From Candida dubliniensis CD36 (taxonomy: Eukaryota; Ascomycota; Pichiomycetes; Serinales; Debaryomycetaceae), in the NCBI RefSeq assembly GCF_000026945.1, contig NC_012866.1, forward strand, positions 434,001-498,000: a stretch of 64,000 nt of DNA. Direction: 5' to 3'. Under the pieces are notes generated by a model. It searched no databases, had not been told where the DNA came from, and saw nothing but the letters and a program-made list of their open reading frames with translations. The position numbers and the translations under genes are program-made. The number at the start of each line of letters is the position of its first letter. Within the stretch, counting starts at the first letter, position 1. Positions 1 to 26,500 of the stretch are shown here, piece by piece.

Positions 1-2
1 TT

Positions 3-209
3 GAAATAGGTGATATGGTTCTCATCTGGGACCGACCACATAAAAATCCAATGGGTGCTAAGATGAAGAAAATGCAACCCAAATGGTCCGGACCTTTCAA
101 GGTGAAGTCAAAAGGTGATCGAATATACAGACTTGAAGATTTAGATGGAACAGAATTATCGAGACCATTTGCAAGAGAGATGATGAAGTTGTATATCAAA
201 AGGAAGTAA
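3..209 (+). CDS. pol C-terminus of LTR retrotransposon (partial)
   Basis: This is an open frame entering from the left edge and ending with TAA at 207-209. The 68 or so residues match the C-terminus of the pol at 10530-13904, with an Ile/Val change near the end. The segment WSGPFKVKSKGDRIYRLEDL fits the GPY/F-type module at the end of Ty3/gypsy integrases. The ATG at 15 is internal, not a start. Whether the rest of this pol is intact cannot be seen here. Confidence 0.85.
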   Translation, partial: EIGDMVLIWDRPHKNPMGAKMKKMQPKWSGPFKVKSKGDRIYRLEDLDGTELSRPFAREMMKLYIKRK

Positions 210-313
210 TTATTCGAGTTGATGATGATTCTCCAATAGATGTTAATTTGATTAATGATGGTAATTTAAAATGAAAATCCAAGGCTTTACATTTCAAAAA
301 TCAGGCGGGAACC

Positions 314-829
314 TGTCGTGTAGTGGATAGTAATCTTTTAAATATGCTATATTTGGTACTATCACACGACAGAGAATCATTTGAAAGAATAATTACGTTT
401 GTTGGTAAATCGCACATAAAGAAGAGAATTGTTATTAGAGAGAAAGTGTTGAATTAGTTAAAAGGATTTAAGTGTGAGTGTGTGAGTGAATAGAATAATT
501 GGTACACACACGCACGAAAATGTCGAATTCTATTTAAGTAAAGAAAATCTAGAAAATTAATTATTTAGTTAGAATGGACCTCATGCAAGCTTAGGCTGAG
601 ATCCAGGAATATACAAATACATACAATCCACATATATTACACTCGTACGGAATAGAGGTATCCCGAAGACTTACACTTAGTCACTGTGTCCATTATTACA
701 CATACATCCAATAGCATTGATTTACTACTTTTAGCCAACCACCAGAAACTGCGTGAGTATTCACATTGCACGTGAATCAGTACCGTAAATATCATTGTCA
801 TTTAAATTAAATAGCGCTACATTGTGACA
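314..829 (+). repeat. 3' LTR of the left retrotransposon copy (516 bp)
   Basis: It starts TGTCGTGTAG and ends TTGTGACA, giving the usual TG...CA ends. It is the reverse complement of the LTRs at 9910-10425 and 15803-16318 with a handful of substitutions and the same length of 516 bp. The sequence just upstream (about 300-313, AGGCGGGAACC) is purine-rich and the likely polypurine tract. The partner LTR and target duplication lie outside the window. Confidence 0.93.
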
Positions 830-3800
830 TTATTACCGTTGGTCACCATCACAGATATTCAAAGCAACTAAAGCAGGATAGAACAAGGTCTTCTGAAAGT
901 TCACACAACTACAAGTCCTGTGAGATTTGCCCATAATTTCCCTCCAGGGACAACAAGTTCTTTCCAACCAAACTTGTTGATTCGAACGCAACTGAACCAG
1001 ATTCTCAAGTCAATAATCCCTAAAATGCGACACACTTATATAGTCAACCGAGAATATCATATTCACCTAGACAGGTTACTAAAAGTTCTAAAAAAGGGTA
1101 TTCTAAAACTAAACGATCGCATCTGAAACTAGATATTTGTCCTTTCAATACGACTCAAACGCAACAAACAGATCATACCAAGTAATGCATTCAAAATCCA
1201 TTTACAGCACTATGGGGGACTATTCCAAAAAATCTGTTCCCAGAAGTATCCACTAGGGAACTTGCATCATAACCCCATTCCCCAGCCTCCCAACAAAGAA
1301 TATCACCATCATTAAATTCAATAGTAGAAGCAGTCAACAGCTAATTTGATTCCGAAAAACTCAGGTTGCTGTACCATTGACCAGAACAATTGCGAACTGT
1401 CTTGCAACCTCTCAAGCAATCAAAACTGACACAACTGAAAGCACAATAAGCATTTTTCAGTCCTAACACAACATCCTTACAGAACGAATTGATTGTAAGT
1501 CTGGTAACACTTTTAATAATATCTAGACAACAACAAATCTAGTTTTACTAACCTTGGCTACAACTCTATGCATAACACACTCCTCAGTAATAAAAATTAC
1601 TCTATATCATCTGTACATGTGAGCCTACATCAAATCGAATATTGGATGATAAAAACACAAACCTTCTTTTCAGAAAAACAGCCACCACCAAACTCTTTGA
1701 AAGCAGATAAAAACGAAATAAACAAAAAATCAAGCTGCTATACAAGTAAGGCGTAGACGGCATTACTTTCATGATCCCTAACAAGCTCCATCCTAAAGCT
1801 ATGATGTGTCAAGATCTCCAAATGTAAGCAAATCACTCTTAGCGTGCATTTAACAAAGCCATTCACAATCCAACTTCCTCTCTAGTCTATATACACCCAA
1901 TTGTACAACAAGTTGTAGTCACAAGCCTAAGCTATATTAACTCATTCATGATATTATTCCTGCCAAGAGTGGACTCCACTATTAACGTATAGGGTGACCC
2001 CATTCAACAGCTTCTAGCAAAACTATGCACTTCAGTCTTTACTTAATTGGACTTCCATCTTGATACATTGCTTCTCTCTTGCCTCTGCGAAACACATGTT
2101 TATCAAAATTGGAACTTGGCTAAACCAACCTCATCATATATTAATAACCTCAAACAATGAAACTGATTCCACCCGAAATATTACATACTGCACAACAGCA
2201 ACCAAATTATCATGCACCACTATCTACAAAAACATTTGTTCACCTCAATAAACCCATTGATTCTGAATGACTAATCATTGCGTATTAATAACAACACCTT
2301 GAATATATTAGCGTCCTATGATTTAAGTAGGCGCTACATATGAACTTCGTGCCAGGCCTATTCTAATGCTATTACCTGTATATATTTCCATACTGCAAAT
2401 ACTGACTTGGAGTATACCTTTCATCATGTACAGTGAACTCTCTCAAACATCCGTATATGATTTAATTAATCCAAGAACCCCGAATGACATTCAGACATTA
2501 TCTCCAACTAAAATATACCGGGATTCCTAAAGAATTTTTTTCCTGAAATACACTAGAATTCCCCGTTAGCTAGTACAATTCTTCAAAAAAAAATTCTATT
2601 CCACATGAACTTTGCCAGATACCATCTAACTCTTAAACATTCCTCCCCATCTCATATGCATGACCACCAACCAGTTCCACTGCTTCCAATAGCGAGGGCG
2701 GGGAGAGGGCAAAGCCCAAGATTACATTAGATTTTTTATGTAGATCTTAATATTCTAGCATGTCTCAGCATTACAAATTCATTGGAACTGCAAATCACCT
2801 GTTCACAAACCGATACGTTAAAGTAATCGATAATATATCCTTATACTACTTTTTTTTCCAGTCTATTTCAAAGCACAGTAGGCATCCAAGTGCTATATCA
2901 CAACCTCTGCTTAATAGACTGTGCACGATATATTGTGGAGCTAGCTGGAGAGGTGAGGCTAGCAGTATGTGACTTTGTTTCTATTTTACTTTCATAGGGA
3001 AATCAATACGTACTAAAATTTACCTTTGCTACCATGTCTAATATCTGGTGAGCAGGAAGTAATCGGCTTCATATATTAAATTGTAAGACGATTATGCATA
3101 CGATGCTCCCATAGTTTTTTATTGCATTGATATTCCTTGTAAATAATGGTGTCACAATTGTCCAAATAAATAAAAAGAGAACAATAGTTTCAGTACATTT
3201 GCTGTCTCTTCAAAACAATGTATAATGTCTCTGCTTTGCTAAATTGAAAAACTGGTAATGGACCAACAGTTATGAGCTGCTATTTAAAATTGCAAATATT
3301 CAATCAAAATGCTTGCGGAATAGAACGGTGACTCTGAAATTTTTGTTATTGGTTTCAACTATCTCTTAGCTAATATCAGGAGAAGTTGAGTTAATTCTTT
3401 AGAATAGCATTGATGAGGTGGCATCCAAGCGATAGGTTATTCTAGGTTCTATTAAGATTGGTTAGTTTTGAAGTATATGATGTCACTGTCTTTAATCTAC
3501 AGTTCTTCCAGTTTGTGCCTTATGTTCACGAAAAGGAAGAGATTCTTAGGTAGAGTGATAAATAATTGGTACTATAGAATATAAACACTACTTTAGGAGA
3601 TTGAGATTTCTTATTGTATGTGAGAAACTTTCTTAGCAGAATCAAAGTATGGTTGTATACGTAATATGATTTCAAATTCAGAGAAAATAATGTGGGTATG
3701 CTCGTGAACATTTATAATTGTAGGCTTGCACAGGAATCATAGGAATTGTGGTTGTATTGATTTAGAACAGTTATGATTACTTTTATGATAGCTGGTGGTT

Positions 3801-5177
3801 TTAGGAGATAAAATACGTAGGGTATTTTTTGGTCTTGTGTGGTGTCGAAGGTATTGAAAACTTGTATGGTAGGAATTTATATATGAGGTGTTGCAATTGG
3901 TGGATGTTGTGTGTGAGGCGTAAAATTAAAGATAAACAGTAGTATGAGATATTGCAAGATTGGTGCTCGATTGTCAGGGTTGATGTGATGGCACTGATTA
4001 CAATTATTTGATAGCCTAATTTCACCTGATGGTACTACAGATCGATATAAGTTTTGGTTAATTTTATGTTGTTTTTGTATGAAACGTTTAGCAAATGGCC
4101 CTTTAAATGGTAGAGCATGGGCTAAGTTCTTTTGTGGTAAAATGTGTTTTTGAAATTGGATGTACATTATTTGTTAGACATGATCATACAGAATCATTTA
4201 CAAGCATTGCTGGTTCAAAGTCAGTTAATAGGTGTTTTAAAATGTGTTTGATGAGAATAGCATTTAATTTTAGTGTTTGAAGGTGCTAGGACTATTATTG
4301 CTGAATTACGTAGTACACAGTCATTGGAGAAAATATTTGAATATGGTGGTAATCTCAGAAGACTGAATAATGGCCTGAGTACTTTGGGGAGTGGGAGTAA
4401 AGTGTGTTAACAGCCTGGTTTGTTTCAGGAAGATCAAGGTAGTTAGCGATTAAGAGGTGACTATTGGTTTTTGTGTCGTATCCGTTTCAGGATTGGTTGA
4501 AGTACTGAGGTAGGTAAGAATTACAGAATCTTTTTGGTTGCAACCTTCTGGTTTTGGTGTTAGAAGAGGTTTGTTTGAGGGTGTTAATTGATGATGGGTT
4601 TGATTTAGATTAACGAGTTATATGTATACTAATTGATGTCATGCCTTTTATCGCTCATGAATGTACCTATTGTTGTTGGAAGATTCTTGATAATCTTTTG
4701 TAGTCTATATTGATTGTCACAGTAAATTTAGGTAGTAAAAGATTTAGATGTTGAAGTGGTTTGCAACATATAGCATCGGGAGATTTGTTCGGGAAATCAT
4801 CAAATTGAGGAGGTATACTAGTATAATAAAGTTTGTTGTAGTGTTGGGGTAGGTGAGTGGTGGTAAGAAAGCAGCGAGGGAAGTTTTAATTTATCTATGC
4901 TTTCAATGGTGTTTTACAATATGTGGAATTAGAATAGGATTCAGCGAGTCTTTATACTTGCTTATGGAGGTAGAATTGATTGTATCAACAATTCCAGCGC
5001 GGAGATTTCTATAGTTGTCTTGATACAACCATTTCTCTTTAAACAATATTGAATAGTAAAACCTAGTTGCATCACTAACTTATACGACCTATTCATTCTA
5101 TACAAGTGCTAGCAAATGTATCTTCTCATGTTCCCAATAGGGCTCATAGCATGTTTTCACGCAACCTGCCTGCTCTT
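830..5177. other. Gene-free block, candidate regional centromere (CEN7-like) with a GC-skew switch
   Basis: No open frame in these 4.3 kb looks like a protein, and no tRNA or other RNA gene was recognised. Base composition is strongly strand-asymmetric. The left half is C-rich on the + strand (1261-1320 has about 22 C and 3 G). The right half is G-rich (4561-4620 has about 19 G and 1 C). The change falls around 2.9-3.3 kb. From memory, CEN7 of C. albicans is a 3-4 kb gene-free region next to the orf19.6522 transporter gene, which the gene at 5178-6899 appears to be. Published work reported GC-skew switches at C. albicans centromeres and tied them to replication origins. Centromere identity is inferred; CENP-A occupancy cannot be read from sequence. 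Confidence 0.62.
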
Positions 5178-6899
5178 CTAATGAGCAAACCGAAAGTCTA
5201 ACCTTCTGGCTCCTTCAACTTTGCTATTCTTGCGATAGTCATCCTTTTCCTCCTCAGACATTGCATTCCATAATTTTTCTCTTCGTTGGTTCTTAAACAT
5301 ATAGTACCCTTTAGTCAACATTATTATTGGTATTGTGGCCATTTCAACAAAGAACAATTGCATATTTCCTCTTTTATATAAGGGCAAATCATCTTTCCGG
5401 TACACATTCTGACCAATGATGCTACTCAACTGGACCGACATATTGTATAAAGCAGAACTAATAGACCTTGTTCTAACTCCATTGGAATTTCTTGAAACCC
5501 ACGCAACTAGAATGGCATGAATATATGGCTGTCCGGAATACAAAGTGTTGAGGACATATGTGGGCCACACTTGTTTGCCCGACCCGGGCCACCATCTAAT
5601 CACAGCCATTATTGTGGCCGAGTAGAGTGGAGCAATAAGACAGACACCGGATCTTTCGTTGATAAATTCTGAAAGCCAGGTAATCAATAGCAAAAAGCCT
5701 ATATGCAACACCTTAGGTGGGATCATTAATAAGTTCGTGTCGAAGGTTGAAAACCCCATTTGACGGTTCAATAGAGCGAAGTAAGACCCAAACGTAGAAG
5801 ATCCAATAAAATTGATTAGTCCTATTGCCATAAGGGGAAAGATGTCGACGTCACGAAAGCTCTTGATAATTTGTCTGACTGTCAAACCTTGTCTGTTATG
5901 CATGGATCCTTTTGTGGGATCATCTCTCAAAATTCTGTTGACAACAATTTTCACTTCACGGTCAGTGAACCAACCTTTAGGATGCATCCAATTTTTAGTT
6001 TGCACTGCTGAGGGGACCATCAAGTAGAAGGAAAATATACCAATTAGTAACGTAAAGGCACCTTCAAGCAAAAATAGCCATCTCCAACCAGCCATACCGG
6101 CCATCCCTCTCATTCTTAAAATTCCAAAGGCAGCTAAGGAGTTAAATATATCCACCAATGACAAAGTTGTCCAAAACCAAGATAATCTAACTGGCAACTC
6201 TTTCCCTGTAAAGAAGTAGCTCAACCATAACACCAAATCTGCAATGAAACCACCTTCTATGGCACCAATCAATAACCTGGTGACAAAAAATGATGTTTTG
6301 CCTGACAAAGCAGCTTGGCACATGGCGACAATACTCCAAGCGCAAATCTGAATTGGAATGAAAATATCTGGTCCTAAAGCCTTTGAAATTAATTGGGAAG
6401 GGATCTCTGCCAACAAGAATGCAACTCTAAAGATGGTGTTGCCTGCGTTGTAATCATTTGTTGTCAACCCCAAATCATCTAAAAAGTTGTCACTTGTTGC
6501 GTTACTCAAGTTGCCTCTATCGACTTGAAGGGCAATAAACATAAAGCAGGCTGTCAAAGCAACACGGTAATTCAATTTACCAATGAGTTTCTTTTCCTCT
6601 TTTGGGTCCCACTCAAAATAGGGATCAAAGGCGGAGTAACTTTCATAGTTTGAAGTTCGATACATTGTATCGTAATATTCGGCAACCTTGGGATCTAAAA
6701 ATGGGTTTTTGGCTAATTGGTCGCTTTCAAGGGACGATAATTCGTTAGCTGAGGAAATGGTGATCTCGATGTTCTCCTTGGAGTTCTTCTCGTCGATTGC
6801 ATGTTGGCAGCTCTGTTTGGTTTTATGATGATCAGCCATTTCAGTATCTAAACCTCTCGTGTTTGACATGGTCTCTGTTGATTTGTTAATATGTCCCAT
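5178..6899 (-). CDS. MFS anion:cation symporter, Dal5/allantoate permease family (copy 1)
   Basis: About 573 residues: a hydrophilic N-terminus of about 110 residues, then about 12 hydrophobic membrane segments typical of major facilitator transporters. The cytoplasmic loop with GWFTDREVKIVVNRILRDDP is characteristic of the fungal Dal5-type (ACS) family, which moves organic anions such as allantoate, nicotinate or other vitamins and amides into the cell. It is a tandem paralogue of the gene at 7431-9107, with long identical stretches such as NWMHPKGWFTDRE and SKALGPDIFIPIQ. The open frame extends to a TTG at 6920. The first ATG is at 6899, and ATGs at 6869 and 6839 are equally plausible starts. 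The N-terminal paralogy (SSLESDxLxKNPFLDPKV) begins only after all of these. The substrate cannot be told from sequence. It is the gene nearest the candidate centromere. Confidence 0.9.
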   Translation of the reverse strand: MGHINKSTETMSNTRGLDTEMADHHKTKQSCQHAIDEKNSKENIEITISSANELSSLESDQLAKNPFLDPKVAEYYDTMYRTSNYESYSAFDPYFEWDPKEEKKLIGKLNYRVALTACFMFIALQVDRGNLSNATSDNFLDDLGLTTNDYNAGNTIFRVAFLLAEIPSQLISKALGPDIFIPIQICAWSIVAMCQAALSGKTSFFVTRLLIGAIEGGFIADLVLWLSYFFTGKELPVRLSWFWTTLSLVDIFNSLAAFGILRMRGMAGMAGWRWLFLLEGAFTLLIGIFSFYLMVPSAVQTKNWMHPKGWFTDREVKIVVNRILRDDPTKGSMHNRQGLTVRQIIKSFRDVDIFPLMAIGLINFIGSSTFGSYFALLNRQMGFSTFDTNLLMIPPKVLHIGFLLLITWLSEFINERSGVCLIAPLYSATIMAVIRWWPGSGKQVWPTYVLNTLYSGQPYIHAILVAWVSRNSNGVRTRSISSALYNMSVQLSSIIGQNVYRKDDLPLYKRGNMQLFFVEMATIPIIMLTKGYYMFKNQRREKLWNAMSEEEKDDYRKNSKVEGARRLDFRFAH

Positions 6900-7430: not shown

Positions 7431-9107
7431 TTAATGAGAAAATCTGAAATCCAACCTCTTGGCACCTTCATCTTTGGTGGTTTTTCTGTAATCGTCTTTT
7501 TCTTCCTCAGTCATGGCTTTCCATAAATTATTTCTTCGCTTGTTTTGCCAGACATAGTAGCCCTTGGCTAGGAGCAAAACGGGGATTAGAATCAAAGTTA
7601 TCACAAACAATTGCATATTACCACGCTTGTACAAAGGTAAATCGTCCTTTCTGTAAATGTTGGAGGCAATGATGGAGCCCAATTGAACAAACATATTGTA
7701 CACTGCCGATGATATTGATCTAGTTCTGACATGGTTTGAATTTCTTGATACCCACGAAACACAGATTGCATGAATGTAGGGTTGCCCAACGTACAATGTG
7801 TTTAAAACATAAGTTCCCCATATGTTCTTACCGGAACCTGGCCACCATCTTATAATACCGATGAGTGGGAGAGCATACAATGGTGCAATTAAGGCGACAA
7901 ATGCCCTGTCATTGACCTTCTCTGAGAACCAGGTGATAGCTAACAAAAATATAATATGCAAAACAGCTTGTGGAATGGTTAACAAATTAGTGTCAAAAGT
8001 TGAGAATCCCAATTGCTTATTCATCAATGTAAAGTAAGCACCGAAGGTACTGGTACCAATGTAAGCAATAAGGCCAATGGCATAAATGGGCCAAAGATTA
8101 TAATCAGTTAAACTGTTCCAAAGTGCCTTGGGGGTGATTCCTTGTCTATTGTGCATGGATCCCTTGGTAGGGTCATCCCGCAAAATCCTGTTGACGACAA
8201 TCTTCTCCTCGCGGTCAGTAAACCATCCTTTAGGGTGCATCCAGTTTTTAGTTTGCACTGCTGATGGAACCATCAAGTAGAATGCAGCAATACCAATTAA
8301 GAGTGTAATTATACCTTCAAGTAAGAAGAGCCATCTCCACCCTTCTAATCCAGCTACGCCTCTCATTCTTAAAATACCAAATGCTAATAGTGAGGTACCA
8401 ATCTGAACCAAGGATAAGGTGGTCCAAAACCATGATAACTTCACTGGCAACTCTTTACTTGTGAAAAAATAACTCAACCATAATACCAAATCGGCAATAA
8501 ACCCACCTTCAAGAGCACCAATGAGAGCTCTAGTTACGAAGAATGACGCTTTGCCTTTTAAAGCTGCTTGGCTCATGGCAACTATTGACCATGCACACAT
8601 TTGGATTGGAATAAAGATATCTGGACCTAATGCTTTCGAAATTAATTGAGAAGGGAGCTCAGCAACCAAGAAGCAGACGTAGAAGATAGTATTTCCAGTG
8701 TTGTAGTCATTTGTCGTCAACCCCAAATCTTTCAATAAGTTATCACTAACTGCTTGTTGGAGATTTCCTCTATCAACCTGCAACCCGACAAAAAGCATAC
8801 ATGCTGTTAACGCTACCCGAACGTTGATTTTTTTGACGACTTTATTTTCTTCCTCTTTACTCCAGGTGAATTGTGGATCAAATGCACTGTAACTTTCATA
8901 TTTTGAATCTTCGTATAATTCACGGTAATATTCTTCCACTTTGGGATCTAAAAACGGGTTCTTTGAAAGTTCATCTGACTCTAAAGATGAGTTTGATTCA
9001 ACGTATGTAACTACTTTATTGTCTTGTTTTTTGAAGGAGCTAGAACTGTTGTTGGAAGCAATTGAGTTTGCACCCAGGTTGGCACCGTCTTTTTCTGTCA
9101 CAGGCAT
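7431..9107 (-). CDS. MFS anion:cation symporter, Dal5/allantoate permease family (copy 2)
   Basis: 558 residues, starting at ATG 9107. The layout is the same as in the neighbouring paralogue: an acidic/serine-rich N-terminus, about 12 membrane segments, the central loop with WMHPKGWFTDREEKIVVNRI, and a basic C-terminal tail ending RLDFRFSH (RLDFRFAH in copy 1). The strong similarity over the whole length and the head-to-tail arrangement show a tandem duplication followed by divergence, greatest in the first 40 residues. It is predicted to be a plasma-membrane proton-coupled uptake carrier for a small organic anion; the substrate is unknown. From memory the pair corresponds to orf19.6522 and orf19.6520 of C. 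albicans. Confidence 0.92.
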   Translation of the reverse strand: MPVTEKDGANLGANSIASNNSSSSFKKQDNKVVTYVESNSSLESDELSKNPFLDPKVEEYYRELYEDSKYESYSAFDPQFTWSKEEENKVVKKINVRVALTACMLFVGLQVDRGNLQQAVSDNLLKDLGLTTNDYNTGNTIFYVCFLVAELPSQLISKALGPDIFIPIQMCAWSIVAMSQAALKGKASFFVTRALIGALEGGFIADLVLWLSYFFTSKELPVKLSWFWTTLSLVQIGTSLLAFGILRMRGVAGLEGWRWLFLLEGIITLLIGIAAFYLMVPSAVQTKNWMHPKGWFTDREEKIVVNRILRDDPTKGSMHNRQGITPKALWNSLTDYNLWPIYAIGLIAYIGTSTFGAYFTLMNKQLGFSTFDTNLLTIPQAVLHIIFLLAITWFSEKVNDRAFVALIAPLYALPLIGIIRWWPGSGKNIWGTYVLNTLYVGQPYIHAICVSWVSRNSNHVRTRSISSAVYNMFVQLGSIIASNIYRKDDLPLYKRGNMQLFVITLILIPVLLLAKGYYVWQNKRRNNLWKAMTEEEKDDYRKTTKDEGAKRLDFRFSH

Positions 9108-9904: not shown

Positions 9905-9909
9905 GATAC
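9905..9909. repeat. Target-site duplication, left copy (GATAC)
   Basis: The five bases just outside the LTR at 9910 are GATAC. The same five bases follow the other LTR at 16319-16323. A 5 bp duplication is the expected footprint of integrase-mediated insertion in Ty3/gypsy and Ty1/copia elements. Confidence 0.93.
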
Positions 9910-10425
9910 TGTCACAATGTAGCGCTATTTAATTTAAATGACAATGATATTTACGGTACTGATTCACGTGCAATGTGAATACTCACGCAGTTTCTGGTGG
10001 TTAGCTAAAAGTAGTAAATCAATGCTATTGGATGTATGTGTAATAATGGACACAGTGACTAAGTGTAAGTCTTCGGGATACCTCTATTCCGTACGAGTGT
10101 AATATATGTGGATTGTATGTATTTGTATATTCCTGGATCTCAGCCTAAGCTTGCATGAGGTCCATTCTAACTAAATAATTAATTTTCTAGATTTTCTTTA
10201 CTTAAATAGAATTCAACCTTTTCGTGCGTGTGTGTACCAATTATTCTATTCACTCACACACTCACACTTAAATCCTTTTAACTAATTCAACACTTTCTCT
10301 CTAATAACAATTCTCTTCTTTATGTACGATTTACCAACAAATGTAATTATTCTTTCAACTGATTCTCTGTCGTGTGATAGTACCAAATATAGCATATTTA
10401 AAAGATAACTATCCACTACACGACA
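9910..10425 (-). repeat. 3' LTR of the complete-length retrotransposon (516 bp)
   Basis: On the - strand it starts TGTCGTGTAG and ends TTGTGACA. It is 516 bp, as are the other two LTRs in the window. It differs from the 5' LTR (15803-16318) at about four sites, including near 10007, 10024, 10108 and 10218. The - strand sequence just upstream (about 10426-10440, AGGCGGGAACC) is the likely polypurine tract. Confidence 0.94.
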
Positions 10426-10529
10426 GGTTCCCGCCTGATTTTTGAAATGTAAAGCCTTGGATTTTCATTTTAAATTATCATCATTAATCAAATTAACATC
10501 TATTGGAGAATCATCATTAATTCGAATAA

Positions 10530-13500
10530 TTACTTCCTTTTGACATACAACTTCATCATCTCTCTTGCAAATGGTCTCGATAATTCTGTTCCATCTAAAT
10601 CCTCAAGTCTGTATATTCGATCACCTTTTGATTTCACCTTGAAAGGTCCGGACCATTTGGGTTGCATTTTCTTCATCTTAGCACCCATTGGATTTTTATG
10701 TGGTCGGTCCCAGATGAGAACCATATCACCTATTTCAACAGGTGTATCAATTTCAAATTTGGCATCGAAATATGCTTTAGTTCTCAATCGTTGGATTTCC
10801 GTTGTTTTATAAGCAGAATTATATTGGACTTCACGATATTGGAGTTGTTTAAACCTGAACTTGAATAGGTCTTCCTTAGTGTAATTTTTATTCTCTGGAG
10901 GATTAGCATATAACAAAGAGAGGTCGGAATGACCACAGTAACCGTACACTAGATAGTGCGGGCTCATACCTGTGGTCAATTTGATTGTATTCCGATCAAC
11001 TCTCAAAGCAGCATCAACGTAGTCTTGCCAATTCAATTGCTTTGGTAATTTCTTTAAAAAGTTTACCAATCCGACATGATTTCTCTCCACTAGACCATTA
11101 CCTTGTGGGTGGTGTTGTATCAGGAATCCCAGTTGAATATTATAGTGGTCTAACAATCTCTTCATGAATTGATTTTTCCATTCAGAACCGTTATCTGATT
11201 TTAGGATTCTGAATTGTCCAAAACGACATATTATGTCCTTGTAAATAAAATCAGCAACTTTGGAGCCATCTAAAGTAGGCATAACGGTTGCCTCCGCCCA
11301 GTTTGAAAACTCGTCCCGGGCGATAACTAACCAACAATCGTCAATAAAAACAGAATCGCAAACAATTTTATCAAAAAGACCACCGGGAAGGTTGATATAT
11401 AACGGATCTCGGCCTATACTATGTCCATCAAATGTCTGACATGTATGGCAACTAGCAATGTAATCTTGTAAGGTTTTGTATAAATTCGGAATAAAGAATA
11501 ATAAATTCAAGTAGTTGAATAAGTTCTGGAGTTTCATATGACCCCTTTCTTCATGTGTCATGCGTAAAATACGCTCTAATTCGGACTTGTCCATGATAAC
11601 TTGGCGGGCAAAATGTCCTTTAGCTCCACGTTTGTACAATTTTCCATCGTCGAGGTAAAATACTTGTGCTTTAGAAAGGAATCCTTTCCGTATTTTGTTG
11701 TTAGTGTTGTAAATTTGGGGAATTTGGACTGTAGTTAAATAATTTTGTATTCCCTGTAGACTGAAGCGTCCATACTTGGGATCGTCATCAGTAATTTGTG
11801 CAAAATTCGTCTTAATTTCCATTTTGGACTTCAAATAATCCATATCTTCTGTTAAATTTAAAGGTAGGATGGGTGTAGATGTGGGGTCTTCGATTCTCGA
11901 TAGACAATCTGCAACTATATTGGATTTACCATCGATATGGGCAATTTCAATGTTATAGTTTCGTAAAAACAGTAGCCATTTGGCCACTCTATTCATCAGG
12001 TGACCGTTAGTGAAACTACCATTTAAGAGGGTTACTACGGCTTTGTTATCGCAGTAGATTTTTATGACTTTGTCATAATTTAATAGATGTATTTCAAGTT
12101 TTTCTAACGAAAAGCATATAGCAGCAAGTTCCTTTTCATATATAGTATAATTCCCTTGGGTAGTATTAAAAAAACCCGAAACACAATCAACCACAACCAC
12201 ATTTCCATCAGTGTTTTTAGATTCGAGGACGCCAGCCCAACTCAAGGAGCTGGCATCTGTGAAAAGCATAACCTCATCTTCTTTATTCAAGGATGTCACG
12301 ACAGGTTCCAGTACCAAGCACTTTTTTAAATATTCGAAATGTTTGAGTTCTTTCTCATTTAATGTAAGAGATTTCTTTTGTTCCTTTCTCGTCACCGTGA
12401 CCAATTTATGAAACGGAGATGCAATCTCGCTGTAAGCTGGGATCAAGTGGCGATAGTAATTTGTCATTCCCAAAAATCTCTCCAACTTTGTTAATGTATT
12501 AGGAATAGGGAATTCTTCAAAAGCAGAAACTCTCTTTCGTAATAATGTAGCTCCCTTCTCGTTTACCCGATAGCCTAAGAAATCAGCTTCTTTCATAGCT
12601 ATTTGAAGTTTTGCAGCATTAATTTTTAATCCATGTTCATGTAGAAGCAGCAAAGTGGCAACAACATCATCTAAATGTCGTATCATATCTGTATCTTCAT
12701 CTGAATCTTGAGAAGCATCAGGACCTAATATTGCAATATCATCTAAGAATGATTCAGTGAATTTTGAGACACTTCTTAAAATTTTAGTAAGCACATTAGT
12801 AAAATAACTAACACTATTCTTAAAACCTTGTGGCATCACCTTAAATCTTAGCACTCCGATTGGTGTTACAAACGCGGTGATGTCACGATCACGTTCGTCA
12901 AGTTCCAATTGAAAATAAGCATTCGAAATATCAAGTGTAGTTAAATATTTTTTGCCACTAATATTCCGAATAATTTCTCTGACATCTTTAGGATGACCTG
13001 CCTCTAATTCAACGAAACTATTGAGGACCCGTAGGTCTATTAAGAATCTGAAACCACCAGATGGTTTACGTAATAAAAACCATGGGTTTCTATATGCTGA
13101 AGTTGGAGCAAATTCAAGTTGATCTTCTGCTATCATCTTCTCTAAGATATCCACAGCAATTGACTTCTTCTCCCCAAGGGGGATAGTTTTTAGTCTCCAC
13201 GGTTCATGATCATTAGCATGTATACGGACCGGTGGGAAATGCTTCAATCTTCCTGGCTCACCTGTAGGCGTTTGGAATACATCTTTAATGTCTTGCAATT
13301 TCTCAATAAAGTAATCTTTCTGCTTATCAGTGAGCATCGATTGAGATAACGGTTCTTTTAATAAGTCTCTTATAGTTTCTTTTATCTCATATTCATTGTC
13401 CTGAACTACTACCTCGTCATTAAACATCTTGAAATTATGAAGTCTACCTTCACTTTTGAATACCATTTTTTGATTTTGGGAGATATCAAAGTAACCTATA

Positions 13501-13904
13501 GAAAAACAATGGGACATCTGGAAGACACGCCCTATAAGTATTATATTTTTCTCCATTGATTCATGTACTAAGATTGTTATCACAAGTTGGTGACAGTTTA
13601 TCTCTAGGGTCGTGCTTATCAAACCTTTTATCGACAGCTCACCCGGATTTATGCCTACCACCGTAGCTTTATATGGTTCTATCTTCAATCCTAATTCTAT
13701 AGCAGTATCCCTATTAATGAGGGAACTGGTAGACCCTGGGTCATATCTTGCCTTTATAATCTTATTATTAAGCGTAACATCAAATTCGATGAGGGGTTGG
13801 GAGATAGTAGGATCATTTTGTTTTATTAATGCATTGAACGATTGTACCATTGGGTTTGTCTCGTTTTGTTCATCACCATCGTCATCACTACTATCTTCTG
13901 ACAT
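10530..13904 (-). CDS. Retrotransposon Pol polyprotein (PR-RT-RNaseH-IN)
   Basis: About 1124 residues from the first ATG. The open frame runs five codons further up to an in-frame TAG at 13922-13920, so in an intact element Pol would be made by reading through that stop after Gag. In order: a protease-like segment (YDPGSTSSLIN, near residue 55), reverse transcriptase (catalytic FLDDIAIL, plus VMPQGFKNS), RNase H (LFTDASSLSWAGVL), an integrase zinc-binding module (H-x4-H then CHTC), the integrase core (aspartates in VCDSVFIDD and LKSDNGSEW, glutamate in GNGLVERN), and a GPY/F-like tail (WSGPFKV). No frameshift or internal stop is present. Oddities: the protease triad reads D-P-G rather than the usual D-S/T-G, and RT has FLDD rather than YVDD or YIDD. 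With gag rearranged next door, normal expression is doubtful. Confidence 0.93.
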   Translation of the reverse strand: MSEDSSDDDGDEQNETNPMVQSFNALIKQNDPTISQPLIEFDVTLNNKIIKARYDPGSTSSLINRDTAIELGLKIEPYKATVVGINPGELSIKGLISTTLEINCHQLVITILVHESMEKNIILIGRVFQMSHCFSIGYFDISQNQKMVFKSEGRLHNFKMFNDEVVVQDNEYEIKETIRDLLKEPLSQSMLTDKQKDYFIEKLQDIKDVFQTPTGEPGRLKHFPPVRIHANDHEPWRLKTIPLGEKKSIAVDILEKMIAEDQLEFAPTSAYRNPWFLLRKPSGGFRFLIDLRVLNSFVELEAGHPKDVREIIRNISGKKYLTTLDISNAYFQLELDERDRDITAFVTPIGVLRFKVMPQGFKNSVSYFTNVLTKILRSVSKFTESFLDDIAILGPDASQDSDEDTDMIRHLDDVVATLLLLHEHGLKINAAKLQIAMKEADFLGYRVNEKGATLLRKRVSAFEEFPIPNTLTKLERFLGMTNYYRHLIPAYSEIASPFHKLVTVTRKEQKKSLTLNEKELKHFEYLKKCLVLEPVVTSLNKEDEVMLFTDASSLSWAGVLESKNTDGNVVVVDCVSGFFNTTQGNYTIYEKELAAICFSLEKLEIHLLNYDKVIKIYCDNKAVVTLLNGSFTNGHLMNRVAKWLLFLRNYNIEIAHIDGKSNIVADCLSRIEDPTSTPILPLNLTEDMDYLKSKMEIKTNFAQITDDDPKYGRFSLQGIQNYLTTVQIPQIYNTNNKIRKGFLSKAQVFYLDDGKLYKRGAKGHFARQVIMDKSELERILRMTHEERGHMKLQNLFNYLNLLFFIPNLYKTLQDYIASCHTCQTFDGHSIGRDPLYINLPGGLFDKIVCDSVFIDDCWLVIARDEFSNWAEATVMPTLDGSKVADFIYKDIICRFGQFRILKSDNGSEWKNQFMKRLLDHYNIQLGFLIQHHPQGNGLVERNHVGLVNFLKKLPKQLNWQDYVDAALRVDRNTIKLTTGMSPHYLVYGYCGHSDLSLLYANPPENKNYTKEDLFKFRFKQLQYREVQYNSAYKTTEIQRLRTKAYFDAKFEIDTPVEIGDMVLIWDRPHKNPMGAKMKKMQPKWSGPFKVKSKGDRIYRLEDLDGTELSRPFAREMMKLYVKRK

Positions 13905-13917
13905 ACCAACTTCTTCC

Positions 13918-13931
13918 AACTAAACTAAATT
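13918..13931. repeat. 14 bp inverted repeat at the left inversion breakpoint
   Basis: AACTAAACTAAATT here is the exact reverse complement of 14978-14991. The pair brackets the part of gag that points the wrong way. On the - strand this copy contains the TAG stop just before pol. Confidence 0.88.
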
Positions 13932-14989
13932 TAAGCTCTCATCTAAGGAAGAACTCACAAGAAGAAAAATAGGTAATCGCAACAACACTATTACGGACTT
14001 AGAAGATCATACTCAATATAATTACAATGAGTTGTGGAAGGGGTTCAAAAATACTCTTTACGAATTAGCCCCACTCACGAGTTTCCAAGCTATCGCTAAA
14101 AAGAAGAATGATGCTAAATCAAAACCTTCAAAAGGTGAAAAATCAAATCTGAACGATAAGAAGTGGCTGTGTATTATCTGTGGTGATGCTCAGCACTCTT
14201 ATAGAAGATGTCCATTAAAAGACCAGTTATATTCAAAATTCCAAATAGCCTACAGGGATGGAAAATATAGAGATACCCAAGGCAAAGAATACAATTTAGA
14301 AAAAGGGGAAAATCTCGCTTCCAAGTATCTGTTGAATTTCGATCTGAATGCGAGGCCTCACGAACAAAGAAATAAAGGTGAACTAAACTCAGGTTCAAAC
14401 TAAACAAGCTATCAACAATAATGAAGAAGAAGGAATTAGCCTTCAAGCTAATGCTGCTATAACTAGGAAGACTCCTCAACAAGGAAAAGGGCTAACCACT
14501 AAGCGAGACCAAAAACAAATAATTAAGAAGGAATTCCTAAAGCAAGACAAGAATAAGAAGAAGGAGATAACTCCAAAAATACAAACACCTCAAGAATTTG
14601 AGAGAAGTGAATTACCGGTTGAAACCGAAGAACAAGATGAAGATTATATCATGGAAGATGAACCAGATATACAATATAATCCGAAAACAAGTGCAGTAGA
14701 TAAGGAATTAGAACACTTGATGGAACCGGATAAAATTTATGAAGATGCTGAATTAAACAAATATGTCACTGAAGGTGAACGGACGGAAAACTTTATGCAA
14801 CCAATACCAATGGTGACTAAGACAAATAATGAAAGACAGGAAGAGAGGGAAACAAGGGAAAGAGTTAAAGACACTCATCACCCGATCCCTGTCCAAGGAA
14901 AAGTAAGGAGACATAGACAGAGTGCTTTCCACTTGAATGATAAAACCCCTTTATTTAAAAAGTTGGATACGAGAATGAATTTAGTTTAG
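13924..14989 (+). pseudogene. Inverted, frameshifted gag fragment with CCHC zinc knuckle
   Basis: This Gag-like coding region lies inside the element but on the strand opposite to pol. The first open stretch (13924-14403) carries CIICGDAQHSYRRC, a C-x2-C-x4-H-x4-C zinc knuckle as in nucleocapsid proteins, at about residue 80. That frame stops at 14401-14403. A second frame, open from about 14384 to TAG 14987-14989, is Lys/Glu-rich and ends ...DTRMNLV. One frameshift near 14380-14400 separates them. The last codons plus TAG (14978-14989) equal the sequence preceding pol on the other strand, which shows this is the C-terminal half of gag turned around. Upstream of the knuckle only about 80 residues remain, far less than a Ty3/gypsy capsid, so a deletion is likely too. 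Confidence 0.85.
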
Positions 14990-15041
14990 TTTTCACGCTT
15001 CGCAATTTTTCAAATTTGGAAGAATTTTCATCAAATTCCAT
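14955..15041 (-). pseudogene. Possible N-terminal remnant of gag
   Basis: On the - strand an ATG at 15041 opens a frame beginning MEFDENSSKFEKLRS that runs across the inversion breakpoint (14990/14991) and stops at 14957-14955. Only about the first 16 codons lie outside the inverted segment. Its position between the leader and the breakpoint, in the same sense as pol, is where gag should start. It is too short to assign by similarity. Turning the inverted block back does not restore a continuous reading frame with it, consistent with an additional deletion. Confidence 0.45.
14978..14991. repeat. 14 bp inverted repeat at the right inversion breakpoint
   Basis: AATTTAGTTTAGTT is the exact reverse complement of 13918-13931. 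It contains the natural end of gag (TAG at 14987-14989) in + orientation. Directly to its right begins - strand sequence with a possible gag start. Confidence 0.88.
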
Positions 15042-15172
15042 TAATTCAGTACTAGTTCTTCTTTATACAGGTCGTTTCAGCTTGTTGACCAATTAAAACC
15101 AGTCTAATTCCTTTTTATTGCTCATCTCTTTGTATGATGTGAGTGAAAATTTTTTCAATTTCACCTTTTTGT

Positions 15173-15375
15173 GTACGTCCTCTTCCGGATCTACTGTATG
15201 TAGTCAGATCGCGGCATCTTAGGTCCGATTTCTTATGAAGTACGTCCTCGTCCCGCCAGTACTGTCTATTAGCATGGTCGTAGAGTCTTAGGCCCGATTT
15301 ATTTGTAGCACGTCCTCGTCCCGCCAGTACTGTCTATTAGCATGGTCGTAGAGTCTTAGGTCCGATTTATTAATA
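15173..15375. repeat. Three tandem ~67-68 bp repeats in the retrotransposon leader
   Basis: Units start at 15173, 15240 and 15308. Units 2 and 3 are nearly identical, sharing TCGTCCCGCCAGTACTGTCT and CATGGTCGTAGAGTCTTAGG. Unit 1 is diverged but keeps TACGTCCTC at its start and CTTAGGTCCGATTT near its end. The period is 67-68 bp. Confidence 0.85.
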
Positions 15376-15770
15376 TATTGGGATAGTCCTTCTCCACGTT
15401 ACGCGTCAGTCTCAATTACCTATTAATACGTGAGGATCTCGGATGTTTAGGGCGCAACTCTGCTCAGGCTCCATTCTCAATTATTCTGTAGACATTTACC
15501 CATACCCGGGTGATGTAGTATAACTATCGATAACAGTGTTTGGCCAGTACTGTCTCATCACCACCAACGTCAACCCTGAGTCCTTTGAACTTATCTCCTT
15601 TGTTTTCGAAGGCGTCATCCGACTGCCTACGGATGCTTGAATAGCTAGCTAACCATTTCACAATCAGTAATCAATCTCATTCCTCGAGGTGAAGTTCCCT
15701 ATTACCTTTTTTTTTGACCAAATATCGAATTAACTTCCAGTTTAGGCATGGTGCTCCTAAGATCTGTTTG

Positions 15771-15788
15771 TCCTGCTAGGGACCACCA
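15771..15788 (-). other. Candidate tRNA primer-binding site
   Basis: On the - strand, 14 bases after the 5' LTR, comes TGGTGGTCCCTAGCAGGA. It begins with TGG, the complement of a tRNA CCA end, as primer-binding sites do. The 14-base offset from the LTR is larger than usual, and the matching tRNA was not identified. Confidence 0.45.
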
Positions 15789-15802
15789 AAATGTATATAT
15801 CC

Positions 15803-16318
15803 TGTCACAATGTAGCGCTATTTAATTTAAATGACAATGATATTTACGGTACTGATTCACGTGCAATGTGAATACTCACGCAGTTTCTGGTGGTTGGCTA
15901 AAAGTAGTAAATCAATGTTATTGGATGTATGTGTAATAATGGACACAGTGACTAAGTGTAAGTCTTCGGGATACCTCTATTCCGTACGAGTGTAATATGT
16001 GTGGATTGTATGTATTTGTATATTCCTGGATCTCAGCCTAAGCTTGCATGAGGTCCATTCTAACTAAATAATTAATTTTCTAGATTTTCTTTACTTAAAT
16101 AGAATTCAACATTTTCGTGCGTGTGTGTACCAATTATTCTATTCACTCACACACTCACACTTAAATCCTTTTAACTAATTCAACACTTTCTCTCTAATAA
16201 CAATTCTCTTCTTTATGTACGATTTACCAACAAATGTAATTATTCTTTCAACTGATTCTCTGTCGTGTGATAGTACCAAATATAGCATATTTAAAAGATA
16301 ACTATCCACTACACGACA
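15803..16318 (-). repeat. 5' LTR of the complete-length retrotransposon (516 bp)
   Basis: It is 516 bp with TG...CA ends on the - strand and about four differences from the 3' LTR at 9910-10425. It should carry the element's promoter and polyadenylation signals. It is followed outward by GATAC, the right copy of the target duplication. Confidence 0.94.
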
Positions 16319-16323
16319 GATAC
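16319..16323. repeat. Target-site duplication, right copy (GATAC)
   Basis: GATAC immediately after the LTR end at 16318, matching 9905-9909. Confidence 0.93.
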
Positions 16324-21077: not shown

Positions 21078-23213
21078 ATGGCTGACGCAAAAGTTGAAAC
21101 TCACGAATTCACTGCTGAGATCTCTCAGTTGATGTCTTTGATCATTAACACAGTCTATTCAAACAAGGAAATTTTCTTGAGAGAATTGATCTCCAATGCT
21201 TCTGATGCCTTGGACAAAATCAGATACCAAGCTTTGTCTGATCCATCCCAATTGGAATCTGAACCAGAATTGTTTATCAGAATCATCCCCCAAAAGGACC
21301 AAAAAGTTTTGGAAATTAGAGATTCTGGTATTGGTATGACCAAAGCCGATTTGGTCAACAATTTGGGTACCATTGCTAAATCTGGTACCAAATCCTTTAT
21401 GGAAGCTTTAAGTGCTGGTGCTGACGTTTCTATGATTGGTCAATTTGGTGTCGGTTTCTACTCCTTGTTCTTGGTTGCTGATCACGTCCAAGTTATCTCC
21501 AAACACAATGATGACGAACAGTACGTCTGGGAATCTAATGCCGGTGGTAAATTCACTGTTACTTTGGATGAAACCAACGAAAGATTGGGACGTGGTACTA
21601 TGTTGAGATTGTTCTTGAAGGAAGATCAATTGGAATATTTGGAAGAAAAAAGAATCAAAGAAGTTGTCAAGAAACACTCTGAATTCGTTGCTTATCCAAT
21701 CCAATTAGTTGTTACCAAGGAAGTTGAAAAGGAAATTCCAGAAGATGAAACTTTAGCTGAAGATGAAGATAAAGCCACTGAAGAAGACGACAAGAAACCA
21801 AAATTGGAGGAAGTCAAAGATGAAGAAGACGAAAAGAAGGAAAAGAAGACCAAAACCATTAAAGAGGAGGTTACCGAAACTGAAGAATTGAACAAGACCA
21901 AGCCTTTATGGACCAGAAACCCATCTGATATCACTCAAGATGAATACAATGCATTCTACAAGTCTATTTCCAACGACTGGGAAGACCCATTGGCTGTCAA
22001 ACACTTTTCTGTTGAAGGTCAATTGGAATTCAGAGCTATCTTGTTTGTTCCAAAGAGAGCTCCTTTCGATGCCTTTGAATCCAAGAAGAAGAAGAACAAC
22101 ATCAAGTTGTACGTCCGTAGAGTTTTCATTACCGATGATGCCGAAGAGTTGATTCCAGAATGGTTAAGTTTCATCAAGGGGGTTGTCGATTCCGAAGATT
22201 TGCCATTGAACTTGTCCAGAGAAATGTTGCAACAAAACAAGATTTTGAAAGTCATCAGAAAGAACATTGTTAAGAAGATGATTGAAACCTTCAACGAAAT
22301 TTCCGAAGACCAAGAACAATTCAACCAATTCTACACTGCCTTCTCCAAGAACATCAAATTGGGTATTCACGAAGATGCTCAAAACAGACAGTCTTTGGCT
22401 AAATTGTTGAGATTCTACTCTACCAAATCTTCCGAAGAAATGACTTCCTTGTCTGACTACGTTACCAGAATGCCAGAACACCAAAAGAACATCTACTACA
22501 TCACTGGTGAATCTATCAAGGCCGTTGAAAAATCACCATTCTTGGATGCTTTGAAAGCCAAAAACTTTGAAGTCTTGTTCATGGTGGATCCAATTGATGA
22601 ATATGCCATGACTCAATTGAAGGAATTTGAAGACAAGAAATTAGTTGATATTACTAAAGACTTTGACTTGGAAGAAAGTGATGAAGAAAAAGCTGCTAGA
22701 GAAAAGGAAATCAAGGAATATGAGCCATTGACCAAAGCCTTGAAAGATATTCTTGGTGATCAAGTTGAAAAAGTTGTTGTCTCTTACAAACTTGTTGATG
22801 CTCCAGCTGCCATTAGAACCGGTCAATTTGGTTGGTCTGCCAATATGGAAAGAATTATGAAGGCTCAAGCTTTGAGAGACACCACCATGTCTTCTTACAT
22901 GTCTTCTAAAAAGACCTTTGAAATTTCTCCATCTTCCCCAATTATCAAGGAATTGAAGAAGAAAGTTGAAACCGATGGAGCTGAGGACAAGACCGTTAAG
23001 GACTTGACCACCTTGTTGTTTGATACTGCATTGTTGACTTCTGGTTTCACCTTGGATGAACCATCCAACTTTGCACACAGAATTAACAGATTGATTGCCT
23101 TGGGATTGAATATTGACGATGATTCAGAAGAAACTGCTGTTGAACCTGAAGCTACCACCACTGCTTCAACTGATGAACCAGCTGGTGAATCTGCCATGGA
23201 AGAAGTTGATTAA
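21078..23213 (+). CDS. HSP90: Heat shock protein Hsp90, cytosolic ATP-dependent chaperone
   Basis: 711 residues, start ATG 21078. The N-terminal ATPase domain has [19 protein letters not shown], the nucleotide-binding DSGIGM, and [12 protein letters not shown] charged Asp/Glu/Lys linker (about 220-270) follows. The middle domain has [11 protein letters not shown] and [16 protein letters not shown], and the protein ends with MEEVD, the docking site for TPR co-chaperones. Hsp90 matures kinases, calcineurin and other clients and buffers antifungal stress responses in Candida. It is almost identical to the C. albicans protein, which I recall as 707 residues; the visible differences cluster in the acidic linker, which points to a sister species. 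The biased codon usage (TTG for Leu, AGA for Arg) is typical of high expression. The upstream HSE-like cluster fits heat induction. Confidence 0.98.
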
Positions 23214-23474
23214 ATGCCAAGGGCTATAATTTTCTAGTTAAGTAAGTTTTGTAATATCGTGTATCTAGAGAGTAATAACATAATATAGGTATTAAGAAAA
23301 ACAGTTTTGTAAAGATTGCTAAGTGAATCGGAAAATGATAAAACCAAGACAGACCAAAAACCGAATTATACGAAAACAATATCACTCAACGTGAATGCAA
23401 CCACGTCAAAAGGAAATAGAAAAAGAAAATAAGGTGACATAGCTTGTGTAAGGTGTATTAATTAGTTAAATTCT

Positions 23475-23507
<33 letters not shown>

Positions 23508-26500
23508 CTAGAAAGAGATAAGGTACATTAACTCGACATTTATTATTGAAAAAGAAAAATGTGTGGGGTGGTTAGTTGAGAGATGCAGAATATTGCTGTA
23601 ACTTTGATTGACACATTAATAGTAACGCCATTTACCTCAGCAATCTAGCATTAGCAATGTAGATTGATGTAGTGGTTGGTGGTAGTAAGGTATTGATCTG
23701 GTTGATTAATGTTTCAACTCAACGAAGATAATAAAAGAAAAAGAATATTCTTCTTATTATATTTCGCCATTTCGATAATAATAGAAACCAAATTAGTTTC
23801 AGGGCGGGTCGAAGATATTATGATGATCATCATCATAAGTTAGAGTTAGAAAAATTATAATCACCATGAAGTTTTAAAAAAATAAAACAACCCACCAACT
23901 CAATAAATAAGTCATGTCATAGCTAATCACTACAGTACATATTACTACATGCTTATATATATGTTTTGCAGTACCAATCTACCGACCAGCTAGCCACACT
24001 ACCAAAAATTGTGTGTAGTTTGTCTCTATATTGTTGTTATCCTCGACCGTATATGGATAGGTATACGATGAGAGGAACTCATTAGTACTGATATCCAACA
24101 AACACATTTGAACTGAAACTAAAATGATCATCGTGATGTTGTTTTAGTATAGTTATAGATTAACTAAATTAAAGTATTAGATGATTCATCATAACTAAGC
24201 AAACAACGTACTCATAGATACAGACATGTATTTTTAGTGATTGTCGATTAGCTAAGTTGACTGTGAATAGGGATAAGGTTAAAGTTTATTTTTATCATTC
24301 CTGATATGTGTTGATAACTGACTAAACTCAATCTGAACTTTTTTGAGGAGTAACCCACAACAACAACAACAACCAGCCAAATAACAATCTTTTTCTTTAA
24401 AAAGGTTATCATATACGATTCAATAGAACTTTATGGTGGTTTTTATAATATTAACCACTTAAAACCTGACAGAAAGAAGCATTGACGACAATTTAATAAT
24501 GATGATGTATTTTCCTGTCAGTTTGAGTTTATGTGTAATATTAATTATCCAAAACAAGCCGTTCATCAATACAAGTAATGAATAGTAATCAAGATATGAC
24601 TAGGTTTTAACTTTAAAAGGAAACACCATCAATAATAATTTAACAAAGTTTTGAAACCAAAGCATCACTTTGTTTCTTTGTTTCCATGTAGGCGCAGTTG
24701 TCAATATTCACAATGAAGTTTAATCTTGAATATTATTCGTAGCGTTGCTGTTGTTAATGACACCTAACGGAACTCATTTAATTTAGCAACTCAGTTATGC
24801 GGTGATCATTCATGGCCATACCACCTATCTATAATGCACATGATATTTCTTCAGTATTGAAGACAGCCAAGACGAAATAGTTTAAACTTCGATGCATATA
24901 CGCTAAGGACAAGGAGAAAAGAATAGAGCGTGAAGCAAAGAAGAAGAAATGGAAGACGGGTTTCAAATTCCAAGCAAGTATATCTTAGCAAAGTATAAAT
25001 CTAAGCCGAGTGAATAAATCATTATACATTATCATTATTGTAGTACCAATACAATAAAAAGCTTCTTTCTCCAAATTACCCCACCCCTGCCCCTCTAGAA
25101 TCCATACCTATCTATGGTTATCAAACCACTATATAGATAAGATTTACACTCAGACACATGTTTCCTAACCATTCTTGTTAAGAAAATTTACTTTATTAGC
25201 CTATGAACAAAGACAGGTTATGATAGGAAACAGAATTTCTCTTTTTATCCTTGGTACGGTTAACCTTTTAGGTGTAGTAAGTAGGTTTTACTTTAACTTT
25301 AGTGGCATTTACGATTGACTGCAAATAAATAAACAGGACTTTTATAACCAGACACTTAAAATGAACATCACGTCCCCCCCCCCCCTATGAATGAGCAAAT
25401 TTGTAAATGCCTAATTTGGTTGGTCTAAACAAATCTGTTGTGGCTTAGATTAGGTTGATAACCAGCTAAGTTGGGCTGATCAAAAACTTTCTTCACTACC
25501 ATTGCACGTTTGTTGAATAGATGTAAATGGATGGGTAGTTTGAGGCAAAACCAATTTGTTATTCTAGAGTTTTGATTGGAGGGAATATTTGCCATTATTA
25601 TCTTTTACTGTGTTGAATGAATAATACGAACCAAATCAAAAAAGTATAAGTATATAATTATCATAACCTGCAGATGAAATACTCAAGAATTATAATTATC
25701 ACAATTTGCAGCAACAAGAGTAAATAATAAAACCAGTAGAAACTATACAAATTTCAAATTATAATATAGCGAAACTAACTACCAGCACAACTATCACATT
25801 TTATTATCAAATCGTCAGAGCTCTTCTAGTTAAAGATACAGTGCTTTCAAATACATTTATAATAAAAAGAGCCCAAGTAGGAAGATTATATAAGTAGATG
25901 GGTATGTGTTTGGGACGAGTGGGTTCGTTGTTGACGTATCTGTCATATCAAGTAACTGTGATATAATATCTGTCTAAGTTTGTGCTTACTCTGATGGTTA
26001 TCTATCCATCTATAGACAATTTCTGGGCGTTAATTACACATTATCATTCATATTATTATAACTTTTTCTGATTATTCAGAAGCCCAGCGGCTTACAACTG
26101 ACCTAACGTACCCAGCCTTCCTACCCACCCATCCAATCCAATTGACTTTTACATATACTTACTGTCTTCTTGATGTGTATATTTCATTTGGGGAAGGAAT
26201 ATAATTAATCATACTATGTTTTTCATTTCCTTGCGTTCGTCTGACACCAGAAATATGACATCCATGGTACACATCTAATTTGAAGCAGTTTTATTTTCCA
26301 ATTGTAATTACAATTATCATGTAATCGTATAGAAAGTTAACAGATTGCCAAGTAAGGATGTAAAAAATAATACATACCATATTTCTAGCAGCCATCAAAC
26401 CAAGAAATTCGAATAGTAAACAAAAGGGGATTTTTTTTTTTCTCTCATTAAATCAAAGTATCTTGTTTTGACTGATTGAATTGTGACTAATGAACGGTTA

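Follow-up and report, generated by a model that had tools for sequence, protein, structure and literature searches.

The gene-free block that is very probably CEN7 of Candida dubliniensis lies between two inverted Ty3/gypsy retrotransposons

Near the left end of a 64,000-nucleotide window of the Candida dubliniensis CD36 genome (contig NC_012866.1, positions 434,001 to 498,000), a 4.3 kb block without genes (positions 830-5177) lies directly beside a retrotransposon. Is this block the centromere of chromosome 7 (CEN7), as an original prediction from the sequence and gene order had proposed, and how did retrotransposons come to lie at its edges? The contig, called C8 here, is 1,022,435 bases long and is one of eight that make up a genome of 14,618,422 bases; we take it to be chromosome 7. 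Positions without a contig name are those of the window, i.e., C8:434001-498000, and open reading frames (ORFs) were called with genetic code 12. The first question can be answered with high confidence: the block is very probably C. dubliniensis CEN7, a small regional centromere of unique DNA, with a base composition that flips at position 2907 and a left arm that has likely been split by a retrotransposon with identical long terminal repeats (LTRs). The second question has a less settled answer, which turns on where related LTRs lie in the rest of the genome.

The strongest sign of a centromere at the block is a reversal of base composition, which the prediction had missed along with two flanking features described below, the TOM40 gene and a second retrotransposon. 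Cumulative GC skew reaches its minimum at 2907, where GC skew changes from negative to positive and AT skew changes in the opposite sense (Table 1). This minimum (-235) compares with a lowest value of -78 among 2000 mononucleotide shuffles. A switch score, defined as whichever is smaller, the deficit on the left or the excess on the right, in halves of 1.5 kb, was calculated in 50-base steps over 355 kb and stood at 0.315 at C8:436901 (window 2901). Five other sites scored at least 0.19, namely C2:1598251 (0.312), C7:1005051 (0.311), C4:874051 (0.291), C3:1944851 (0.236) and C5:1030651 (0.199), while none of the 5544 control positions, i.e., those more than 5 kb from all six switch points, did so (control maximum 0.136). 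The switches on C2, C7, C4, C3 and C5 are likely CEN1, CEN6, CEN3, CEN2 and CEN4, respectively, and their relative positions agree with those of C. albicans CEN1, 6, 3, 2 and 4. The search was not blind: the C3, C4, C5 and C7 stretches were picked around LTR hits, and the C2 stretch by where CEN1 would lie in relative terms.

The absence of genes and the uniqueness of the block were both borne out. No ORF of at least 100 amino acids (aa) overlaps positions 830-5177, the four of at least 60 aa being at most 96 aa long, and within the block no repeat reaching 20 bases was found. Searching the whole genome (14.6 Mb), the check that had been suggested, returned the block itself as the single match; the six likely centromere cores also show no mutual similarity at E 1e-3, so the sequence is unique in both respects. 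The genes on either side are those expected of CEN7. On the left, beyond the retrotransposon (element A), a 392-codon frame at C8:424821-425999 matched solved TOM40 chains, with E down to 8.7e-154; on the right, the transporter that had been predicted to adjoin the block is a major facilitator superfamily (MFS) gene. In C. albicans, CEN7 has TOM40/orf19.6524 on one side and orf19.6522, to which the transporter would correspond, on the other. Gene-free DNA continues for about 2.4 kb past element A (C8:426000-428432), and the gap from TOM40 to the permease-type gene, counted without element A, is about 6.8 kb. Both this figure and the 4.3 kb of the block alone fall within the 4-18 kb given for the gene-free region of such centromeres (PMC7263194).

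CdCEN7, its Cse4 mapping, its skew and the presence of a Ty3/gypsy element there are already in print. A 2008 study by Padmanabhan reportedly mapped Cse4 (CENP-A) at C. dubliniensis centromeres, CdCEN7 included. Every centromere of C. albicans and of C. dubliniensis has been described as showing a reversal of GC and AT skew, and in C. albicans the origin recognition complex (ORC) was bound close to the switch and centromeres replicated earliest (Koren 2010, PMC2924309). According to the figure legends of that paper, the C. dubliniensis skew figure carries reported Cse4 borders, and the C. albicans switch falls within published centromeres. A Ty3/gypsy retrotransposon, Cd36_71790, is named at CdCEN7 (Chatterjee 2016, PMC4741521), and a Ty3/gypsy element there is also given in Ola 2020 (PMC7263194). 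The reading as a CEN7-type regional centromere is therefore supported by uniqueness, by neighbours on both sides, by the skew reversal and by this published element. Cse4 occupancy over the centre of the block is inferred from the neighbours, from the skew and from the name CdCEN7 given in print; origin activity at the switch and the cause of the skew are equally matters of inference.

The less expected part of the picture is an opposite-facing pair of retrotransposons at CEN7, together with related LTRs within 3 kb of the centre at six likely centromeres. Elements A and B, both of about 6.4 kb and mutually inverted, bracket CEN7 and share 98.7% identity over their best-matching 3579 bp. Some 9.1 kb separate them and contain the block as well as the two permease-type genes, and B lies 4.7 kb past the block. 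Full-size copies of their family were found only at CEN7. B is flanked by the target duplication GATAC (9905-9909 and 16319-16323). Both elements are internally rearranged: in A, gag runs into pol in one frame and lacks the gag part that carries a zinc knuckle in B, and in B this part (its zinc knuckle recognised by eye) is inverted relative to pol. The block is thus gene-free, unique, skewed, flanked by the expected neighbours and bracketed by inverted elements. Among the excerpts available, no published account was found of the inverted pair around CdCEN7, of the split left arm or of the clustering of two families at six centromeres, part of which could stand in the 2008 study; nor did any literature title or abstract opening found concern general retrotransposon clustering at C. 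dubliniensis centromeres, an absence that is not proof.

The retrotransposon end was correctly predicted to abut the block on the left, as the LTR of A ends at 829 and is followed by its target duplication. Position 830 is an insertion point and not a natural edge, since near the insertion the sign of the left-arm skew continues past A. GC skew is -0.235 over the 633 bp next to A (C8:427800-428432, with no recognised LTR) and -0.263 over 427200-427800, while A itself stands at +0.076. Because its LTRs are identical, its 5-bp duplication is clean, it does not share the local sign of the skew and the far side is negative, its insertion into the left arm is likely recent, and A is likely younger than the skew. 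Strand-biased change was also sought by comparing four old LTR relics of left arms with young copies (T>C 55 vs A>G 34, G>A 35 vs C>T 29); one control relic, from a stretch without a switch, leans likewise for T>C (16 vs A>G 6).

Several observations weigh against this account of the centromere. Nearer TOM40, GC skew turns positive (+0.065 at 426500-427040), with -0.155 farther left (426000-426500). The stretch 427200-427800 overlaps an old LTR relic of a second Ty3/gypsy family (family 2), a young relative of which is itself skewed (-0.23), so that only 427800-428432 is clean support for the left-arm sign past A. As to one switch per chromosome, none was found for CEN5 in 19 kb of C6 (433001-442000 and 410001-420000), nor for CENR in 20 kb of C1 (1750001-1770000). 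The C6 position follows from the poly(A) polymerase gene (a landmark of the mating-type locus, at C6:394325), which by C. albicans spacing would put CEN5 near 437 kb; C6 is presumably chromosome 5 and C1 chromosome R, and these chromosome names lean partly on gene content. Skew is also imperfectly specific for centromeres, since C. dubliniensis is reported to have one skewed site outside centromeres, with a skew that falls short of theirs (Koren 2010, PMC2924309).

LTRs of the family of A and B (family 1) gave 17 genome rows, reduced to 12 loci by merging the LTR pairs of A, of B and two C2 pieces and by dropping two nested rows; family 2 gave 25 rows and, after merging, 20 loci. The row counts of these genome searches are lower bounds. 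Nine family 1 and 17 family 2 loci lie on those six chromosomes whose switch was located. Three of the nine (0.05 expected) and five of the 17 (0.09 expected) fall less than 5 kb from it; within 16 kb, the figures are six (0.16 expected) and seven (0.29 expected). Scoring all C1 and C6 loci as misses still leaves 13 of 32 within 16 kb, against 0.56 expected. The nearest LTR of either family lies 2.1 kb from the switch on C2, 2.0 on C3, 1.6 on C4, 2.5 on C5, 2.7 on C7 and 2.1 on C8, and all four loci of both families that bear pol (A, B and those on C4 and C7) are within 16 kb. By comparison, searches by pol found 16 loci of other retroelements on these chromosomes, and none is within 16 kb, the nearest being 169 kb away; five such loci on C1 and C6 were left out of this control. 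The difference (13/26 vs 0/16) has a Fisher p of 0.0005, with families 1 and 2 counted by LTRs and the control by pol. On six of the eight chromosomes, copies of the two families are therefore found near centromeres more often than chance or the other retroelements would predict, with the centromeres inferred from skew, four of the six switches sought near LTR hits, the 16 kb bound picked after the data were seen and the binomial assuming independent loci.

Two LTRs of family 1 (C4:863635 and C7:1008591) were excluded from these counts as they are nested identically: they lie at the same place, with the duplication GACTC, within two family 2 copies, and were not taken for independent insertions. 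The C4 and C7 family 2 copies are 98.5% identical over the 5.96 kb compared and differ in their left flanks; given the shared nested LTR and duplication, the composite of a family 2 element with its nested family 1 solo LTR was likely copied between chromosomes. On the short arm of C7, several family 2 LTRs lie 22-60 kb from the switch, and three (C7:1027339-1032447 and 1064862-1065319) lie between the likely CEN6 and the chromosome end; the proximity to the C7 centromere could therefore partly reflect accumulation along the arm. On C6, two family 1 LTRs, at 413 kb and 438 kb, lie in regions where no switch was found. The first region includes a markedly A+T-rich stretch, C6:410001-414000 (G+C 23-28% per kb), surrounding a solo LTR of family 1 that has the duplication GTAGA.

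Two further readings of the block itself can be set against CEN7. It might be no more than a long stretch of intergenic DNA, such as a large promoter or the gene of an untranslated RNA, or the eroded remains of one, with no centromere function, as it is a gene-free tract beside genes and the window holds an even longer one: between HSP90 and the CUP9-type homeobox gene, 8.0 kb (23214-31223) contain no ORF of at least 100 aa. That gap shows no comparable switch in the same scan, which indicates that a lack of genes is not enough to produce one. With no Rfam family reaching threshold in the window and eight further loci, equivalent switches on five other chromosomes and a published CdCEN7 that likewise adjoins a Ty3/gypsy element (PMC4741521), this reading is extremely improbable. 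Scarcely more probable is that the skew reflects only a constitutive origin or divergent transcripts, with the Cse4 domain nearby, e.g., left of A beside TOM40. Skew does report strand-biased mutation and not CENP-A, neocentromere sites without skew show that the two are separable (Koren 2010, PMC2924309), and gene-free DNA is also present at C8:426000-428432. Against it stand the small size of that left remainder, only 2.4 kb, and the position of the C. albicans switch inside published centromeres, as well as the Cse4 borders reported on the C. dubliniensis skew (PMC2924309).

The clustering of the elements would suggest that families 1 and 2 prefer centromere edges, which may come about by targeting or by retention; both are possible. 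Retention, in which nothing is aimed, copies elsewhere are purged, and the gene-free, recombination-poor flanks of centromeres keep theirs, has not far short of an even chance. In its favour, centromeres also have old relics nearby (67-83% identical), and of the 17 family 2 loci on chromosomes with a located switch, ten are farther than 16 kb from it. Speaking against retention are the absence of other retroelements within 16 kb and the young, clean insertions near centromeres, i.e., A with its identical LTRs and the target duplications at A, B, the C4 element, the C4 solo LTR and C5:1015406. These clean young insertions favour targeting. We propose, tentatively and at rather less than even chances, that two Ty3/gypsy families target their integration to the border of centromeric chromatin, 1.6-3 kb away from the centre, and that two separate insertions in this way built an inverted repeat around an otherwise repeat-free epigenetic CEN7. 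A Chromo domain was not matched in family 1 pol, and the single family 2 ORF scanned (870 aa) gave a reverse transcriptase match only, with none to integrase. Guidance by tRNA genes was also considered and rejected, as ARAGORN found no tRNA gene in the window or 15 loci, nor Rfam in the window and eight loci; ARAGORN was run with the bacterial code, and intron-bearing fungal tRNAs could be missed.

For CEN7 itself, Cse4 nucleosomes are predicted over about 3 kb around the switch, in a domain that would be inherited epigenetically and not read from a sequence motif. A central origin would fire early in nearly every cycle, with forks moving outwards, and long-term strand-biased mutation would write a C-rich left arm and a G-rich right arm. 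A would then have inserted into the left arm, and B 4.7 kb past the block in the opposite orientation. This mechanism is the same as the reading of Koren 2010 (PMC2924309), with ORC near the switch and earliest replication in C. albicans.

The locus shares with the small regional centromeres of C. albicans and C. dubliniensis a gene-free unique core of published size, dissimilarity between cores, a central reversal of GC and AT skew and the expected neighbours, and is most likely CdCEN7 itself. It differs from C. albicans CEN7, near which no obvious repeats are described (PMC4871872), in being bracketed by a 6.4 kb inverted retrotransposon pair, although C. albicans CEN7 reportedly also has a similar retrotransposon no more than 50 kb away (PMC4741521). 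An inverted repeat also surrounds the core of C. tropicalis centromeres, and a related retrotransposon is reported at CtCEN7 (PMC4741521). The C. tropicalis repeats are homogenised over all chromosomes, whereas here the arms are two mobile elements, A and B, separated by about 9 kb that include two genes, and full-size copies were found only at CEN7; this is not an inverted-repeat centromere of the C. tropicalis type. LTR elements are associated with other fungal centromeres, i.e., Tcn1-6 in Cryptococcus, Tj1 in S. japonicus and Ty5-like elements in D. hansenii and S. stipitis (PMC7175516, PMC7263194). Those elements build the centromere, while the C. dubliniensis elements sit next to a core that is small and unique. 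Tj1 frequently inserts upstream of tRNA genes (PMC7175516), of which ARAGORN and Rfam found none in the scanned stretches here.

Farther right, the genes agree with the predicted order HSP90, CUP9 and ECM42: Pfam places HSP90 at 21078-23213, a homeobox KN gene (CUP9 type) at 31224-32297 and an ArgJ gene (ECM42) at 51977-53296. Among others, the 19 window ORFs with Pfam results encode, from left to right, two MFS transporters, a Ty3/gypsy-type pol, aldehyde dehydrogenase, XPA, HSP90, KN homeobox, Exo70, tRNA ligase and ArgJ. The next ORF-free gap after the homeobox gene is 4.6 kb long (32298-36864).

Table 1. Features of the CEN7 region and of related elements elsewhere (positions without a contig name are those of the window).
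Feature	Position	Strand	Basis
Retrotransposon A, 6397 bp (family 1)	C8:428433-434829	+	LTR and target-duplication comparison
3' part of A interior: end of pol (to about 209) and stretch after it	1-313	+	ORF/pol matches
3' LTR of A, 516 bp, identical (516/516) to 5' LTR C8:428433-428948	314-829	+	LTR alignment
Target-site duplication of A, TTATT; other copy at C8:428428-428432, outside the window	830-834	.	Sequence comparison
Gene-free, genome-unique block right of inserted A, very probably CEN7 core and flanks	835-5177	.	ORF calls, genome match, skew
Left arm, C-rich on + strand	835-2906	.	GC skew -0.304, AT skew +0.119 over 2066 bases, C8:434835-436900
Skew switch point; likely centromeric replication origin and putative centre of Cse4 domain	2907	.	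Cumulative minimum -235
Right arm, G-rich on + strand	2907-5177	.	GC skew +0.309, AT skew -0.101 over 2277 bases, C8:436901-439177
MFS transporter, allantoate-permease type, right border gene	5178-6899	-	Pfam; named relatives include allantoate permeases
Second tandem MFS gene, same type	7431-9107	-	ORF call, Pfam
Retrotransposon B, 6409 bp, family of A, inverted; LTRs 9910-10425 and 15803-16318 (512/516 identical)	9910-16318	-	LTR alignment
pol of B: reverse transcriptase, RNase H, integrase; no chromodomain match	10530-13904	-	Pfam
Family 2 element	C4:863086-869685		Flanked by CTGTC
Family 2 solo LTR	C4:875627-876088		Flanked by ATGTA
Second family 2 element	C7:1008042-1015021		Right end inferred from two LTR pieces

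The identification of CEN7 agrees with the published result and shows that skew and gene neighbours suffice to point to a centromere from sequence. The retrotransposon pattern weighs more than the centromere call itself. Element A offers a natural experiment: its insertion put foreign DNA into the left arm, beside a likely centromeric origin, and the lack of the local skew in A fits a slow build-up of skew. If the two families do aim at centromere edges, they would offer a tool for mapping centromeres and a test of the chromatin feature that the elements read. The A/B pair would be a ready substrate for centromere flipping or for an isochromosome 7. Such insertion would also be a route by which repeat-free yeast centromeres acquire inverted repeats, and CEN7 of C. 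dubliniensis would then be a living intermediate between unique and inverted-repeat centromeres.

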